From Actinoallomurus bryophytorum (GTDB taxonomy: Bacteria; Actinomycetota; Actinomycetes; Streptosporangiales; Streptosporangiaceae), in NCBI RefSeq assembly GCF_006716425.1, contig NZ_VFOZ01000001.1:2604001-2668000 (forward strand): 64,000 bases of DNA. Direction: 5' to 3'. Shown here piece after piece: positions 9,227 through 53,610 of this stretch. Position numbers and translations under genes: made by a program. Below the pieces are notes generated by a model. The model was not told where the DNA came from. It was given only the letters and a program-made list of their open reading frames with translations, and made no database searches. Each line of letters opens with the position of its first letter. Position 1 is the first letter of the stretch.

Positions 9227-9727
9227 TCAGGCTCCGAGCGCGCACAACATGTCACGGACCGCACCGCCGGACAGGCCCATCTTCGACAGGTACCCGTCGG
9301 CGTCGCTCAGCCCGTAGAGCTCACGGAGGTCGTCCTCGGCCCAGCTCGAAACCAAGATCATGAACATCTGCGGCGCCAGGCCCAGGCGGACGAAGTCCGC
9401 GATCAGCTCGACACCGCTCTCCCTTCCGAGACAGAGATCGATGAGTGCGACGTCGGGACACATCTCGGCGGCCAGCCACAGTCCCTGTGTCCGGTCACAG
9501 GCCGTACCGACCACGTCGAACCCATCCCGCACGAGCAGCTCGGAGAGCGCATGGACGAAGCGATCGTTGTCGTCGACGATCACGCACCGAGCTCCGTAAG
9601 CATCGGCCGGCGCTTTGACCCAGGGGGTCCCCGCCGTACGTCCCGCGCACAGGTTCCCCGTGGCACATCGCAGGGGGAACGCGTCCGCGGGATTCGGAGA
9701 CGCCGCGTCGAACAGGCTCACGCTCAT
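9227..9727 (-). CDS. Stand-alone response-regulator receiver domain protein
   Basis: The 166-aa protein carries one receiver domain at about residues 50-166: CVIVDDNDRF (acidic pocket), PDVALIDLCLG (phosphoacceptor Asp in LID), ILVSSW (Thr/Ser switch position) and DGYLSKMG (conserved Lys). The N-terminal 45 residues show no domain. No output domain is present. It converges on the second GAF-ANTAR gene with 17 bp between stops. It may act as a phosphate-accepting partner for an unlinked kinase. An upstream GTG at 9742 is a possible alternative start. Confidence 0.75.
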   Translation of the reverse strand: MSVSLFDAASPNPADAFPLRCATGNLCAGRTAGTPWVKAPADAYGARCVIVDDNDRFVHALSELLVRDGFDVVGTACDRTQGLWLAAEMCPDVALIDLCLGRESGVELIADFVRLGLAPQMFMILVSSWAEDDLRELYGLSDADGYLSKMGLSGGAVRDMLCALGA

Positions 9728-9742
9728 GAAACCCCCACCCAC

Positions 9743-9948
9743 GTCGAAGTCGATGTGAGTGCCACACGGGTCTGGAGCGGCGACTCTGGTCCGGAGACCA
9801 ACCAGCGCTGCATACCTGGTCAGACCGACTTTAGGCGAGCTGACGCATCCGGCAAAACGCCTGTCTCAGATACCAGACGCGCCTGTCCGGATGGAGCGTT
9901 GGCCCTCCGGCGTTCCCTTCACGCCTGCGACGTCCCTGTCGTCCGTCC
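9743..9948. other. Intergenic, no gene seen
   Basis: About 200 bp upstream of the receiver gene and downstream of the questin-oxidase-like gene. I see no conserved ORF, RNA or clear repeat. Confidence 0.4.
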
Positions 9949-11034
9949 CTACTGGCGTTCGAAGAGTGCGGTGGCGTGCACGGCCGCCGCGAGGGCGTCG
10001 GGATCGCCGGTACGTGCGTAGACCTCGACCGCCGTGTCGGTGAACTTGATGACGTGCTCGTCGCCGTGCGCGAACGCGCGATCCAGTACCTCGGCGGCCG
10101 GGTCGTTCCCGCGTGGCGCCGTCGGCAGATCGCTCCTCGGCAGCGCCTCCGACGGACCGTACATCGAGGTGATCGCCGCGCTCGCCGCCCACGCCACCGT
10201 CAAACTGGCCGCCCATTGCTCGCGGGGCAATGCCGGGAGGGTGTGCAGGATCGCGTTCGGCGCCGTCGCGGTGTGGACCAGAAGGGTCGGGCCGGCGTGA
10301 CCATGCGTGAGGTACCGCAACGTCGCGGCGTCGACCACTTCGGTCAGCCGGTCGCGTACCTGCTCAGGCTCGATCGCCGGCCGTAGGGCCGTCACCGACT
10401 CCGGCCATCCGCGCAGCTCGCCCAGCATGCCGAGCCGGATCCGGATCGGCCCCTCCTGCTGGTCGATCCGCGGTACGGCATCGAGTGCGTGGGCGGCGTC
10501 GAGCGTCCCCGCCGGCGTTGCCACGCCGGGAACCCCGCGGAACCGGGCCGCCCAGTACGCCAGCCCGTGCGCGAGCTCGTCCAGTGCCGGGGCGCTCTCG
10601 CCGCTCTCGCCGCTTTCGCTCTCGATGGCGAGGAGGGTTCGTACGGCGTGTCCCGTCCTGATCGTCCCGTGCGTGGCGCCGGCCGTGATGCCCGGGAGCA
10701 GCCTGGGCCACCAGGTGGCGAGCACCTCACGCCACGGCCGTTCCCTCATCTGCCAGGTCAGGTACACGCACCAGTCCCCGACGCGATCGCCCAGCGCCGC
10801 CTGCCAGGTGGCGTCGGTGATGGGCTCACTGGGCGCGGGCGCCTCCATGAGCCGCGGCGCGTAGGCGTCGATCCAGCCCGGGATCTCGTCGGCCCGATCG
10901 CGGCGCGCCATCACCTCGGCGGCCATCGGAGCGTGGTTCGCCATGTTGCCGCCCCACTCCGGCCCACTCTGATGCAGACGCTCGTAGGCTCCGTCGAGGT
11001 TCTGGTCCTTCACCACATTCCCCGATTCGCTCAT
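9949..11034 (-). CDS. Questin oxidase-like (DUF4243) family protein
   Basis: The 361-aa protein has features of the DUF4243 questin-oxidase-like family: LDGAYERLHQSGPEWGGNMANHAPMAAEV near the N-terminus, a histidine-rich helical core (TAGATHGTIRTGHAVRTLLAIE), and the C-terminal HVIKFTDTAVEVYARTGDPDALAAAVHA. In fungi, family members are Baeyer-Villiger-type oxygenases on anthraquinones; bacterial roles are mostly unknown. ATG 11034 was preferred as the best-spaced of several clustered starts. It is a single-gene unit, so its metabolic context is open. Confidence 0.75.
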   Translation of the reverse strand: MSESGNVVKDQNLDGAYERLHQSGPEWGGNMANHAPMAAEVMARRDRADEIPGWIDAYAPRLMEAPAPSEPITDATWQAALGDRVGDWCVYLTWQMRERPWREVLATWWPRLLPGITAGATHGTIRTGHAVRTLLAIESESGESGESAPALDELAHGLAYWAARFRGVPGVATPAGTLDAAHALDAVPRIDQQEGPIRIRLGMLGELRGWPESVTALRPAIEPEQVRDRLTEVVDAATLRYLTHGHAGPTLLVHTATAPNAILHTLPALPREQWAASLTVAWAASAAITSMYGPSEALPRSDLPTAPRGNDPAAEVLDRAFAHGDEHVIKFTDTAVEVYARTGDPDALAAAVHATALFERQ

Positions 11035-49358: not shown

Positions 49359-49745
49359 TCAGGTGTTGCGCGATTTCTTCGCGTGCGGGCCGCTCCAGCC
49401 GTGTGTGGACCCGGCCGGCTGCTCGACCGAGGCGAGCGTTATCGCGAAAGCCGCTCCGGCCACAACGAGCATGAGGCTGATGAGTACGCCGATAACGATC
49501 GGCCCTTTTGTGACAACAGTGGCGGCCGCACCTAAGACTCCACCGGCAGTGATCGACCCGATGAGCGTAAGCGGCCTGGTCCGCCGGCGAAGCCGGGCGA
49601 TCTCACGACTTGCCTGATAGGTGCGGACTTCATCCAATGCCTGCACGTAAGCGGATCGCAGATAAGGCGCGTCCATGGCGGCGCCCTCACTTTCGATCCA
49701 GTGCACGGAGTCCTGATCAACGATCGTTTCGATTCGTGGTTTCAT
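49359..49745 (-). CDS. Membrane protein, possibly DUF-like
   Basis: The 128-aa protein has an N-terminal soluble part (KPRIETIVDQDSVHWIESEGAAMDAPYLRSAYVQALDEVRTYQASREIARLRRRTRPL) and two transmembrane helices (LIGSITAGGVLGAAATVV, IVIGVLISLMLVVAGAAFAITL). AGGAGGGG precedes ATG 49745. No family recognised. It is followed downstream by no same-strand gene and preceded by the GAF-like protein, so the two may form a unit. Confidence 0.6.
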   Translation of the reverse strand: MKPRIETIVDQDSVHWIESEGAAMDAPYLRSAYVQALDEVRTYQASREIARLRRRTRPLTLIGSITAGGVLGAAATVVTKGPIVIGVLISLMLVVAGAAFAITLASVEQPAGSTHGWSGPHAKKSRNT

Positions 49746-49800
49746 GAGCCCCTCCTCAAACCACACACTCATTACAGTTTCTTCCCCCACCGAACACTTC

Positions 49801-50586
49801 TCAAGCCTTTTTTGGAATAAGAGCCAGTCCGGCACCCAAGAGATTGCCGAGCGTCTTCATGATTGCCATATCGAGTTCGCTGAACGAATCGGCCTCCGGC
49901 GAATCGACCAGGAGCGCACCAAAACGCAGGTCCCCGGCGGTGACCGCAACTGCGATAAAAGTACGGTACGAACGATTTGGCCTCATCCCCTCGGGTGCAT
50001 CCTTTGTCAGGTCCGGGTAGATGAGGGACTGTCCCTCCCTCATCATCTTGAACATGTTCCGGCCACCCGGATCGCTTGGGTCGTCCGCGAAGATCGTCGT
50101 CGATGCCTCCGAGCGTGCGTCCTTGGCGGAGAAGCCGTCGCACTCCATCTTGGCGTCGGTCACCCGGAAGAACAGGCTCCGCGTGTCGGGAGCCGAGGGG
50201 AGCAGGCTGGCGGCGCTCAGGACGGCCTGGATGAAGTGGCCACCCAGTTGGATTTTCGTCACATCCGAGGTGGCACTTGCCAGTCTGCCCAGATAATGAT
50301 GCGCGGTGTTCAGCGAAGAGCGGAAGGCGACGATGGCGCGCTTCTGATCATTCAGGTGTGCACGTCTCACTTTCGTGGCGCGCAGCTGATTGATCGCAGA
50401 GGCGGCGATGGGCGCGATCGCACACGCTGCCGCTATCAAAAGGTTCTGGACCTGATGCTTGCCGGGAGAGCCCCCCAGCGCCCCGAAGACCACGCCGCCG
50501 AGGGTGCCGGCCACCGTCATGATCCACAAAACAGTGTACAGAGCCAGTCTCGGCAGCTCTCTTGAGATCTTTCGCGGGTCGCTCAA
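49801..50586 (-). CDS. Membrane protein with GAF-like domain
   Basis: The 261-aa protein has two N-terminal membrane helices (LALYTVLWIMTVAGTLGGVVFGAL, LLIAAACAIAPIAASAI), then a soluble alpha/beta region with FFRVTDAKMECDGFSA, SLIYPDLTKDAP, YRTFIAVAVTAGDLRFGALLVDSPEADSFSELD, which reads as a GAF domain (sensor). The TTG at 50586 with GGGGAGG upstream is preferred; a GTG at 50634 is possible. The ligand is unknown. A lone membrane-tethered GAF sensor with no output domain is unusual. Confidence 0.65.
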   Translation of the reverse strand: MSDPRKISRELPRLALYTVLWIMTVAGTLGGVVFGALGGSPGKHQVQNLLIAAACAIAPIAASAINQLRATKVRRAHLNDQKRAIVAFRSSLNTAHHYLGRLASATSDVTKIQLGGHFIQAVLSAASLLPSAPDTRSLFFRVTDAKMECDGFSAKDARSEASTTIFADDPSDPGGRNMFKMMREGQSLIYPDLTKDAPEGMRPNRSYRTFIAVAVTAGDLRFGALLVDSPEADSFSELDMAIMKTLGNLLGAGLALIPKKA

Positions 50587-50634
50587 ACTCGCCTCCCCCG
50601 TTCGCCCCAAGTTAGACCGAGAATACGGCGACAC

Positions 50635-52235: not shown

Positions 52236-52393
52236 GCCGATCAGCCTACTCGGACGTCACTTCTCCGATGGAACCGCGACCTGTCCACTCTGCGTCAGAA
52301 CCTATGAAGGCTTCCTCGCGGTTAAATCGGTTTGATTCCCCGGAGCGACTTCTTATGCTGGATATCAGAAGGCGACAAGGAAGGACTCTCGCA

Positions 52394-52468
52394 GTGACGT
52401 ACGCAACCACCGCCAAGCCGTGTGGCCTGGCCAAAGAGTGCGATGAGCCTGTTGGTGCCTCTGGGTAG
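52394..52468 (+). CDS. Short Cys-containing ORF, HNH-endonuclease N-terminus-like
   Basis: GTG with AGGAAGG about 10 bases upstream encodes MTYATTAKPCGLAKECDEPVG and three more residues, then TAG. KPCGLAKECDEPV resembles the zinc-binding CxxxxxC-xxPV start of phage-type HNH endonucleases that often accompany tRNA arrays, so it may be a truncated remnant. The evidence is a weak motif match only. Confidence 0.3.
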   Translation: MTYATTAKPCGLAKECDEPVGASG

Positions 52469-52584
52469 GGACGATCAGTCCTGATTTCAGAGGCCGCCGG
52501 TGGAGACATCCCCAGCGGTCTTTTCTTATGCCTTCTCACCGGGCTTGTACGTTGACAAATCAACAGCGGAACACACCAAAGAAA

Positions 52585-52633
52585 GGCGGCTCAGTCCGCC
52601 GTTCGCCCCCAGGTTCGGGTCCTGGGGATGGCT
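52585..52633 (+). pseudogene. Degenerate tRNA-like segment
   Basis: An anticodon-arm-like GGCGG-CTCAGT(C)-CGCC and a perfect T arm (CCCCAGG-TTCGGGT-CCTGGGG) are followed by an acceptor-like GGATGGC-T, but no matching 5' half is present upstream. It is probably a tRNA fossil at the upstream end of the array. Confidence 0.4.
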
Positions 52634-52691
52634 GACCTCTGGTCAGGGCTCGTGGGGCCGCCGTAGGCGGGCAGGCCCGCGACGAGCGCAC

Positions 52692-52764
52692 GGGCCGATG
52701 GTGACAACGGAATCACGCCTCGCTCGCACCGAGGAGTTCCTGGGTTCGAATCCCGGTTGGTCCA
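52692..52764 (+). tRNA. tRNA-Ala (CGC)
   Basis: Acceptor GGGCCGA with TTGGTCC includes the G3:U70 pair diagnostic of tRNA-Ala. Anticodon arm CCTCG-CTCGCAC-CGAGG gives CGC (codon GCG). T arm CTGGG-TTCGAAT-CCCGG. First of a dense array. Confidence 0.85.
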
Positions 52765-52772
52765 CTCATCAC

Positions 52773-52845
52773 GCCGTACAGGCCAAAACGGTTGAGGCAC
52801 CTGCCTTCCAAGCAGGGGAACCGGGTTCGAATCCCGGGTACGGCT
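52773..52845 (+). tRNA. tRNA-Gly (TCC)
   Basis: Acceptor GCCGTAC/GTACGGC; anticodon arm CCTGC-CTTCCAA-GCAGG gives TCC (codon GGA). T arm CCGGG-TTCGAAT-CCCGG. Begins 9 nt after the previous tRNA. Confidence 0.88.
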
Positions 52846-52867
52846 CTGGCCGACCACGTCGGCCGCA

Positions 52868-52942
52868 CGGGATGTGGCGCAGTTTGGAGTGCGCGCCCGG
52901 TTCGGAACCGGGAGGACGTTGGTTCGAATCCAGCCATCCCGA
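52868..52942 (+). tRNA. tRNA-Pro (CGG)
   Basis: Acceptor CGGGATG/CATCCCG with C1:G72, characteristic of Pro. Anticodon arm CCCGG-TTCGGAA-CCGGG gives CGG (codon CCG). T arm GTTGG-TTCGAAT-CCAGC. Confidence 0.88.
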
Positions 52943-52963
52943 CGTGGGCGAGAGCCCATTCCA

Positions 52964-53035
52964 GCGCCGTGAGCATGACAGGTGATGCACCGGGCTCTTA
53001 CCCCGGGGAACAGAGATCGAGACTCTGACGGCGCA
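52964..53035 (+). tRNA. tRNA-Lys (CTT), atypical T loop
   Basis: Acceptor GCGCCGT/ACGGCGC; anticodon arm CCGGG-CTCTTAC-CCCGG gives CTT (codon AAG). T arm CAGAG-ATCGAGA-CTCTG: the T loop begins ATC instead of TTC, an unusual base for a functional tRNA. Confidence 0.78.
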
Positions 53036-53039
53036 CGAT

Positions 53040-53111
53040 GCCTCCGTAGCTCAGCAGGCAGAGCGACGCTCTTGTAAAGCGACGGCGCCGGTTCGATTCC
53101 GGCCGGAGGCT
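53040..53111 (+). tRNA. tRNA-Thr (TGT)
   Basis: Acceptor GCCTCCG/CGGAGGC; anticodon loop CTTGTAA gives TGT (codon ACA), anticodon stem ACGCT/AGCGA with one A-A mismatch. T arm GCCGG-TTCGATT-CCGGC. Starts 4 nt after the tRNA-Lys. Confidence 0.85.
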
Positions 53112-53141
53112 CGGGGCCCAGCGGGGGCCCGGTAAGTACTT

Positions 53142-53214
53142 GCCGCTCGCGCCCGACGGGACGGGCACCGGCCTTTTAAGCCGGACTGAAGGGGTTCGAG
53201 TCCTCTGGGCGGCA
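53142..53214 (+). tRNA. tRNA-Lys (TTT)
   Basis: Acceptor GCCGCTC/GGGCGGC; anticodon arm CCGGC-CTTTTAA-GCCGG gives TTT (codon AAA). D arm GCCC/GGGC, T arm AGGGG-TTCGAGT-CCTCT. Confidence 0.88.
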
Positions 53215-53218
53215 CTGG

Positions 53219-53291
53219 GCGTCGCAAGCTCAACAGGATGAGCAGCCGCCTTCTAAGCGGCAGGGTCCGGGTTCGAGTCCCGGGCGGCGCG
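53219..53291 (+). tRNA. tRNA-Arg (TCT)
   Basis: Acceptor GCGTCGC/GCGGCGC (one G-U pair); anticodon arm GCCGC-CTTCTAA-GCGGC gives TCT (codon AGA, a rare codon in such genomes). T arm CCGGG-TTCGAGT-CCCGG. Confidence 0.85.
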
Positions 53292-53295
53292 CCTT

Positions 53296-53370
53296 GGCGC
53301 AGTAGGCAAAATGGATACAGCCGCCGGACTTTCACTCCGGTGCATGCGGGTTCGAATCCCGTCTGCGCTG
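53296..53370 (+). tRNA. tRNA-Glu (TTC)
   Basis: Anticodon arm CCGGA-CTTTCAC-TCCGG gives TTC (codon GAA). Acceptor GGCGCAG with CTGCGCT contains a terminal G1-U72 pair. The D arm is short (GGC/GCC). T arm GCGGG-TTCGAAT-CCCGT. Confidence 0.8.
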
Positions 53371-53386
53371 CCATAGCCCCGATCGA

Positions 53387-53459
53387 GGTCGTGCGGAGCA
53401 GTGGAGTGCTCGCCTGTCCGTCGAACAGGAGACCGCGGGTTCGAGTCCCGCCACGACCG
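53387..53459 (+). tRNA. tRNA-Asp (GTC)
   Basis: Acceptor GGTCGTG/CACGACC; D arm GAGC/GCTC; anticodon arm CCTGT-CCGTCGA-ACAGG gives GTC (codon GAC). T arm GCGGG-TTCGAGT-CCCGC. Confidence 0.88.
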
Positions 53460-53470
53460 CATATCACCAG

Positions 53471-53544
53471 GGCGCGGTTCTCGCCGGTGCGGGCGGCGGC
53501 CTGCAAAGCCGACCGATGTCCGGGTTCGACTCCCGGCCGCGTCT
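53471..53544 (+). tRNA. tRNA-Cys (GCA)
   Basis: Acceptor GGCGCGG/CCGCGTC; anticodon arm GCGGC-CTGCAAA-GCCGA gives GCA (codon TGC). T arm CCGGG-TTCGACT-CCCGG. The D arm is irregular. Confidence 0.8.
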
Positions 53545-53545
53545 C

Positions 53546-53597
53546 CACGTAGCTCAGCGGACAGAGCAGCCGTGCTGACCCTACCCACGGCAGAAGT
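53546..53597 (+). pseudogene. tRNA remnant at array end
   Basis: TAGCTCAGCGGACAGAGC is a clear D arm, followed by GCCGTG...CACGGC with an 11-nt loop, and then the sequence leaves tRNA form with no T arm. It is the truncated end of the array; the identity is not readable. Confidence 0.6.
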
Positions 53598-53610
53598 ACG
53601 CATATGAGAA

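Follow-up and report, generated by a model that had tools for sequence, protein, structure and literature searches.

The leader peptides of the trp, his and ilv operons act as ribosome-mediated transcription attenuators of amino-acid operons. In these systems, a short leader open reading frame (ORF) containing regulatory codons is followed by an antiterminator and a terminator, which compete with each other in front of the regulated genes, and the genes regulated are those of biosynthetic enzymes. For S. coelicolor WblC, the motif GAAAWY-N3-TKGMNN-N16..19-TANNNT was reported, six tRNA genes were described to be under direct WblC control, and tRNA aminoacylation was identified as enriched in the WblC regulon (PMC7157823). 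The whiB7 leader is thought to be a sensor of stalling in general, and the cleavage of tRNA by VapC5 was shown to raise whiB7 (PMC10287673). A silent reserve tRNA operon which is switched on at need is the trn operon of Anabaena, resembling in this respect the role proposed for the array presented here. It is controlled by the repressor TrcR, and the excerpt available of PMC10272220 mentions no leader peptide.

Dense tRNA arrays have been identified in actinobacteria as mycobacterial and plasmid units (PMC5966550, PMC12803027), and are considered a putative antidefence system in the abstract of PMC12803027. Such arrays have been catalogued for years, and their function has only been guessed at in the literature surveyed. 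The terms 'leader' and 'attenuat' are absent from the text of both articles, as are 'terminator' and 'promoter' from that of PMC12803027. Among the best-ranked results from the open-access literature, no tRNA array tied to a leader peptide or an attenuator was found. Here, an array of Actinoallomurus bryophytorum is described which very likely serves as a tRNA reserve and is controlled by ribosome-mediated transcription attenuation.

This array, designated array 1, is located in a window of 64,000 nucleotides, the whole stretch of DNA that was analysed. By ARAGORN, ten tRNA genes were identified on the + strand between window positions 52692 and 53547, with a smallest gap of 2 bases (Table 1). 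All ten tRNAs and anticodons named in an earlier, sequence-only reading were recovered, as was the start of the array; the end given there (53544) and the minimum gap of 4 bases have to be corrected, the tight spacing itself being borne out. The G1-U72 pair of tRNA-Glu and the odd T arm of tRNA-Lys (CTT), both pointed out earlier, are readable in the sequence, and the neighbours agree with those proposed, with a low-molecular-weight phosphatase and a fructosamine kinase on one side and a subtilase on the other. Eight of the ten genes are above the cut-off of the Rfam tRNA model, with tRNA-Lys (CTT) and tRNA-Cys (GCA) below it; the ten tRNAs are real.

At window positions 52323-52566, 5' of array 1, a regulatory region was identified which is absent from the sequence-only account. 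The host genome (9.47 Mb, 3 contigs) contains 65 matches to the tRNA model, and ARAGORN identified 68 tRNAs on the stretches fetched. A second array, array 2, consists of 11 tRNAs at C1:4694472-4695524 (9473-10525 of locus L031), namely Trp-CCA, Arg-GCG, Gln-CTG, Leu-GAG, Leu-CAG, Glu-CTC, Met-CAT, Asn-GTT, Arg-CCG, His-GTG and Tyr-GTA. On their 5' sides, both arrays have an AT-rich box, -35 and -10 elements, a ribosome-binding site and a leader ORF 24 or 25 codons long. At the stop codon of the leader there is a CCTCTGG or CCTCCGG, which is complementary to a CAGAGG or CGGAGG located shortly 3' and followed by a GC hairpin and a T run. The leader of array 1, MTYATTAKPCGLAKECDEPVGASG, contains eight of the nine amino acids of its array (Ala, Gly, Pro, Lys, Thr, Glu, Asp and Cys), with Arg missing, and the leader of array 2, MNTALWHLSQRMRYELRAVLAETSG, contains all nine (W, R, Q, L, E, M, N, H and Y). 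The boxA-like element 3' of the terminator reads TTGACAAATCAACAG in array 1 and TTGACAACTCAACAG in array 2.

Table 1. Elements of the control region and tRNA genes of array 1, in window positions.
Feature	Position	Strand	Basis or remark
WblC/WhiB7-type AT-rich box TAAATC	52323..52328	+	3 bp 5' of -35; PMC7157823 motif
-35 element TTGATT	52332..52337	+	motif scoring
-10 element TATGCT, spacer 16	52354..52359	+	motif scoring
Ribosome-binding site AAGGAAGGA of the leader ORF	52377..52385	+	
Leader ORF MTYATTAKPCGLAKECDEPVGASG, 24 codons, GTG start, TAG stop	52394..52468	+	
Proposed antiterminator 5' arm, end of leader	52453..52465	+	fold; covariation, 82 distinct sequences
Proposed antiterminator 3' arm, overlaps terminator 5' arm	52487..52498	+	covariation, fold
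Intrinsic terminator, GC hairpin then TTTTCTT	52492..52527	+	covariation, fold
rRNA-leader-like boxA element TTGACAAATCAACAG	52552..52566	+	own 16S rRNA leader has TTGAGAACTCAACAG
tRNA-Ala (CGC)	52692..52765	+	ARAGORN, Rfam
tRNA-Gly (TCC)	52773..52846	+	ARAGORN, Rfam
tRNA-Pro (CGG)	52868..52943	+	ARAGORN, Rfam
tRNA-Lys (CTT), odd T arm, below Rfam cut-off	52964..53036	+	ARAGORN
tRNA-Thr (TGT)	53040..53112	+	ARAGORN, Rfam
tRNA-Lys (TTT)	53142..53215	+	ARAGORN, Rfam
tRNA-Arg (TCT)	53219..53293	+	ARAGORN, Rfam
tRNA-Glu (TTC), G1-U72	53296..53373	+	ARAGORN, Rfam
tRNA-Asp (GTC)	53387..53460	+	ARAGORN, Rfam
tRNA-Cys (GCA), below Rfam cut-off	53471..53547	+	ARAGORN

For a survey of such loci, a covariance model (R1) reaching from the last codons of the leader to the T run was built from 10 loci. 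It has only two matches in the host genome, which are arrays 1 and 2, and matches at E 0.1 or better in 147 of 341 genomes of the host's family. The first 87 matches listed (to E 1.1e-4, from 76 genomes) formed the discovery set, and the 88th, with the same printed E, was assigned to the hold-out. Behind 84 of the 87 matches tRNAs are present, the exceptions being L225, L237 and L238 (405 bases short of a contig end). L225 (G259:C2) has a strong attenuator with leader and terminator and no detectable tRNA behind it; here, the array was perhaps lost and the switch left behind. Three loci from a plasmid search (L132, L133 and L135) brought the set to 90 items, and removal of the three without tRNAs and of two duplicates (L132 is the record of L174, and L133 matches L167 in both leader and array) left 85 pairs of leader and array. 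Leader starts were picked by the score of the ribosome-binding site, blind to the array. A Shine-Dalgarno match of at least 4 is present in 84 of the 85 leaders, the start having been chosen by that score, and the stop codon lies at the same model position in 80.

A second model, R2, was built from 86 aligned matches and identified a match in 190 of the 341 family genomes at E 0.01. In the discovery set and the hold-out, 107 matches from these 341 genomes were examined, 104 of which are followed by tRNAs. Class-wide, R1 matched 8 of 394 genomes, three of them outside the host's family, and no tRNA was found at any of these three loci. R2 matched 56 of the 394 genomes at E 0.005, and 42 of these do not belong to the family; at 13 of the outside loci and one inside, no tRNA array was found, one locus having a single tRNA-Val on the 5' side. 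Going by the 13 R2 loci and three R1 loci inspected outside, the attenuator was seen only in the host's family and on some plasmids. Array 1 belongs to a tRNA system with leader control that is widespread.

The strict boxA pattern is present at 21 of the 87 loci (duplicates included). In L031, L085, L132, L135, L236, L253, L255 and L256, tRNA-Trp is the first gene after the leader region, and a spacer with a boxA-like element often follows it. At several of the 21 loci with the strict boxA pattern (L086, L081, L194, L214 and L245), complementary arms which differ in sequence from locus to locus were identified by eye at the two ends of the arrays, like the stems enclosing rRNAs.

The structure of the attenuator was analysed on 82 distinct aligned sequences, in which 47 double-changed cells were counted compared to 8.3 after shuffling, the alignment having been fitted to that structure. 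In the helix formed by the leader end, four of seven pairs are changed on both sides. The terminator core is paired in 99% of the cells, the search model itself including the terminator, and the mean energy of the hairpin is -22.6 kcal/mol. In the window transcript folded up to 52510, the leader end folds onto a stretch including the 5' arm of the terminator. Over the 85 loci, the probability of an overlap between antiterminator and terminator arm was 0.76 compared to 0.59 with shuffled leader ends, a modest excess. The unmasked minimum-energy fold contains the terminator at 56 of the 85 loci and the antiterminator at 25; all 85 loci form the terminator once the stop region is masked. A T-box structure was not identified, tRNA being the only Rfam family above the cut-off in the window.

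The match between leaders and arrays is very strong. With the start codon and the two final codons excluded, the leaders of the 85 pairs contain 416 of 439 array amino acids (0.948), compared to a mean of 299 when leaders were swapped among arrays; none of 20,000 shuffles reached 416, and the Mantel-Haenszel odds ratio is 21.8. After removal of leaders more than 50% identical, the values for the remaining 41 pairs are 232 of 253 compared to 166 (again 0 of 20,000). Complete coverage of the own array was found for 74 of the 85 leaders. The 11 leaders missing at least one amino acid include that of array 1 and those of the biggest arrays, for example L174 (35 tRNAs, 15 of 20 amino acids), L236 (24 tRNAs, 10 of 15) and L177 (7 of 11). 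The match is a property of the coding frame (z 14.4, compared to -1.0 for the +1 frame, 2.3 for the +2 frame and 0.5 for antisense); the small signal kept by the +2 frame was reached by 86 of 5,000 shuffles, and in the reduced set the values are 10.5, -0.2, 1.2 and 1.0, respectively. Shuffling inside the two largest genera gave z 6.4 and 7.2, and the remainder z 6.7.

Along the leader, the match is found in the earlier codons (z 6.8 to 10.3), is lower at codons -5/-6 (z 3.7) and is absent from the last four codons (z -0.1 and -0.6). This is the prediction of attenuation, because a ribosome stalled in the last codons would cover the antiterminator arm. As a hold-out, the first 20 unused R2 matches of the family, ordered by E, were analysed. 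All 20 have a leader and tRNAs, and 57 of 62 array amino acids are covered, with 18 of the 20 arrays covered fully; shuffling gave a mean of 42.7, and none of 20,000 shuffles reached 57. The hold-out is not fully independent, since eight of its 20 leaders share at least 60% identity with a leader of the discovery set and ten of its arrays consist of Pro or Pro-Leu tRNAs. Examples are Leu and Ser tRNAs behind MSLQSSSPVLLSWQAAG and Pro and Leu tRNAs behind MRNTLPAFPSLLLSG; in L289, 14 of 18 array amino acids are present in the leader. At an additional locus, L251, the leader contains all six.

Upstream of the leader, the promoter of array 1, TAAATC-N3-TTGATT-N16-TATGCT, fits the WblC motif save for the first letter of the box. 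Over 86 of 87 tRNA-bearing loci (duplicates included, one locus being too near a contig end), the mean motif score was 10.99 compared to 8.37 for shuffled DNA, and a score of at least 11 was obtained for 77% of the loci compared to 0.9% of the shuffled DNA, using the S. coelicolor consensus, mononucleotide shuffles and allowed spacings of 2-4. In one genus, many promoters have CACCAT instead of TANNNT, that is, a -10 element without TA.

Attenuation is the natural reading of the leader-array match. The WblC/WhiB7-type promoter, which would be active under translation stress, is proposed to start a transcript whose first coding stretch is a short leader, made up of the amino acids that the tRNAs further downstream carry. 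With all aminoacyl-tRNAs at hand, the ribosome would reach the stop codon and cover the leader end, the terminator would form and the array would stay off. If one aminoacyl-tRNA were short, the ribosome would stall upstream of the last codons; the leader end could then pair with the 5' arm of the terminator as an antiterminator, and read-through of the polymerase would supply the spare tRNAs. For the longer arrays, the rRNA-like boxA and the stem joining the ends probably protect and process the long untranslated transcript. These loci likely constitute a self-referential class of attenuators, in which the leader is a tRNA checklist that is kept in step as tRNAs are gained and lost, up to a complete 20-amino-acid pangram on some plasmids. 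The short leader ORF and the proposed competing structures resemble those of the trp, his and ilv attenuators; however, the product is a set of tRNAs instead of biosynthetic enzymes, and the leaders comprise many amino acids, up to all 20, in a list which tracks the gene content of the array.

A leader that lists the products of its own array suggests a function, the replacement of what is missing, by which the cell would be rescued from tRNA shortage. tRNA arrays and ribosome stalling would then be joined in one circuit with the antibiotic-stress response of WblC/WhiB7. If this is true, the leaders would be ready-made sensors of tRNA shortage, some sampling all 20 amino acids, and each array would be a self-testing spare-parts kit for translation. 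The leader-array match provides a readout amenable to a simple reporter. The replacement of tRNAs cut by defence nucleases had been suggested in the sequence-only reading; of this, the idea that missing tRNAs are replaced agrees well with the evidence from the leaders, and starvation and antibiotics are candidate removers besides nucleases.

At the codon level, the array anticodons read 556 of 977 codons for array amino acids compared to 471 expected (z 5.9), and 245 of 439 compared to 215 in the reduced set (z 3.1). This effect is weak, and a tuning of the leaders to the anticodons of their own arrays was rejected. Since the match is found at the amino-acid level and the anticodon match is weak, the sensor may respond to the charging of all isoacceptors. 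The much better fit of the leaders to array amino acids than to array codons also favours the possibility that the leaders, like those of trp and his, sense amino-acid starvation or blocked synthetases, the loss of tRNA by nucleases being irrelevant and the extra tRNA helping in another way. The enrichment of tRNA aminoacylation in the S. coelicolor WblC regulon points in the same direction. However, extra tRNA would not be expected to cure a missing amino acid or synthetase, and it is tRNA genes that come after the terminator, the first within about 340 bases, which makes this explanation possible at best.

Very large arrays with such leaders were identified on plasmids of Nonomuraea and Micrococcales. 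Four Micrococcales plasmids, Pseudarthrobacter pACHL01, Paenarthrobacter pYJN5-1, Arthrobacter zg-Y1110 and Curtobacterium pS16, have 37 to 39 tRNAs for all 20 amino acids, and their leaders of 44-52 codons contain all 20 amino acids, those of pACHL01 and pYJN5-1 being homologous. For random peptides of that length, the complete set of 20 is expected in no more than 0.6% of cases if an actinobacterial composition is assumed, and in 6-19% with a flat composition. The 35-tRNA array on the Nonomuraea NBC_00507 plasmid has a leader with only 15 of 20. Among eight extra plasmid stretches (L253-L260), an R1 attenuator lies beside the array in two (L255 and L256), and in L253 a hairpin and a leader with all 20 amino acids are present at a place that R1 does not match. 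No leader or attenuator was found in the 900 bases upstream in L257, and no convincing match to R1 in L259 and L260. The two mycobacterial plasmid arrays inspected, L254 and L258, differ in having no adjoining attenuator by R1; they have only a longer ORF, of 88-93 codons, in which all 20 residues occur, and for an ORF this long that is weak evidence. Upstream of their first tRNA, the inverted repeat GCTTCCGG/CCGGAAGC and an rRNA-like boxA (TTGAGAACT.CACAGTG) were noticed by eye, which are possibly another form of the same control. On pS16 (L253 5528-5899 and 18679-19740), a WhiB-family gene precedes the array by about 4 kb, and a gene for an ATP RNA ligase lies within the array.

The very large plasmid arrays of Nonomuraea and Micrococcales speak for the view that the arrays are anti-defence cargo of phages or plasmids, replacing tRNAs cut by anticodon nucleases. 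It is also favoured by the array-1-like arrays, whose sites differ among three genomes of the genus. For the neighbouring phosphatase, the six closest named relatives (80-84% identity) are five Actinoallomurus records and one filed as Actinomadura sp. DC4; A. iriomotensis and DC4 are both listed in the same genus as the genome of the window. In five of six relatives, the interval between phosphatase and subtilase is 0.3 to 5.8 kb (about 270 bases in L096), with no tRNA in between, and in A. iriomotensis and DC4 the array-1-like array lies elsewhere. Array 2, however, has the same chromosomal flanks in DC4, at 79-81% DNA identity, no phage-type Pfam match was found in 10 ORFs neighbouring array 1, and one exact pattern of the attenuator had no match in viral contigs. 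No phage record among the matches listed covers 80% of either array, the best-ranked one for array 1 covering 12%, and two phage-comparison records at 95-99% identity are not among the matches listed. Array 1 as a phage tRNA cluster was rejected on the absence of phage-type neighbours and of array-level phage similarity among these matches. The horizontal acquisition proposed in the sequence-only reading is in line with the differing sites of the array-1-like arrays, but not with the flanks of array 2 or the missing phage traits. Cargo of this kind is unlikely overall; as it concerns origin and purpose, it is compatible with attenuation and does not exclude it.

All ten anticodons of array 1 have a further copy in the genome, which disposes of the possibility, raised earlier against the array's acquired status, that it is the sole source of its tRNAs. 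For array 2 this applies to 10 of 11, Arg-GCG being found in the array only. The anticodon Arg-GCG is unusual in bacteria; it is also present in the related arrays L085, L175, L177 and L245. Compared with core tRNAs of the same anticodon, those of the arrays show 55-84% identity. Arrays 1 and 2 have no anticodon in common, which was set aside as evidence, being expected by chance alone in about 4%. Nuclease-resistant anticodon loops were also considered and rejected, array and core loops differing by eye at few positions without a shared pattern. The duplication of anticodons bears on a compensation of codon bias, in which a mobile array would supply tRNAs for codons rare in the host, as the sequence-only reading had put forward. 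Several anticodons do read codons which were called rare in GC-rich genomes there, and the tRNAs of the Bifidobacterium plasmid pMP7017 were so interpreted (PMC10832533). However, besides the existing copies, many arrays contain tRNAs for G-ending codons, for example Leu-CAG and Gln-CTG, and such a role predicts neither the leader-array match nor the presence of a promoter, leader and terminator that suit the array, so that it is very improbable.

The host genome contains eight WhiB-family matches, one of them with the WblC/WhiB7 AT hook (RGRPRK, locus L271). Upstream of this wblC, GAAAAT-ACG-TTGCCT-18-TACGCT, a long leader ORF and a strong terminator were identified. The leader, on the - strand of L271, has at least 85 codons from the first well-placed GTG and contains all 20 residues; its region matches R2 weakly (19.6 bits) and is absent from the R1 matches of the genome. 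The whiB7/wblC leader and regulon resemble the array system in the promoter motif, the leader ORF with terminator and, as proposed here, translation stress as the signal. However, the whiB7 leader is believed to sense stalling generally, whereas the amino acids of the array leaders track the downstream tRNAs, and the wblC leader of the host is longer than those of the arrays. The attenuators of the arrays may descend from a wblC-type leader. That they are ordinary general stall sensors of the WhiB7 type which resemble their arrays by chance, as the leader ORF, terminator and weak R2 match of wblC might suggest, is contradicted by the 20,000 shuffles and by the frame, within-genus and hold-out controls, and can be dismissed.

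Further observations were made on the arrays and their surroundings. The tRNA-Leu genes of array 2 (L031 9858-10014) have 74 nt and are devoid of a long variable arm; short core tRNA-Leu genes were also identified by ARAGORN (CAA 74, TAA 77 and TAG 77) beside normal ones of 84 and 87. Near array 1, at window positions 49359-50634 on the - strand, two ORFs are located, one with a sub-threshold match to a GAF domain and the other without a Pfam match. The array itself is flanked by tRNA-like remnants recognized by eye, a 5' tRNA half after tRNA-Cys (window 53549-53600) and a T-arm-like stretch before tRNA-Ala (window 52575-52650), which suggests a turnover of array members.
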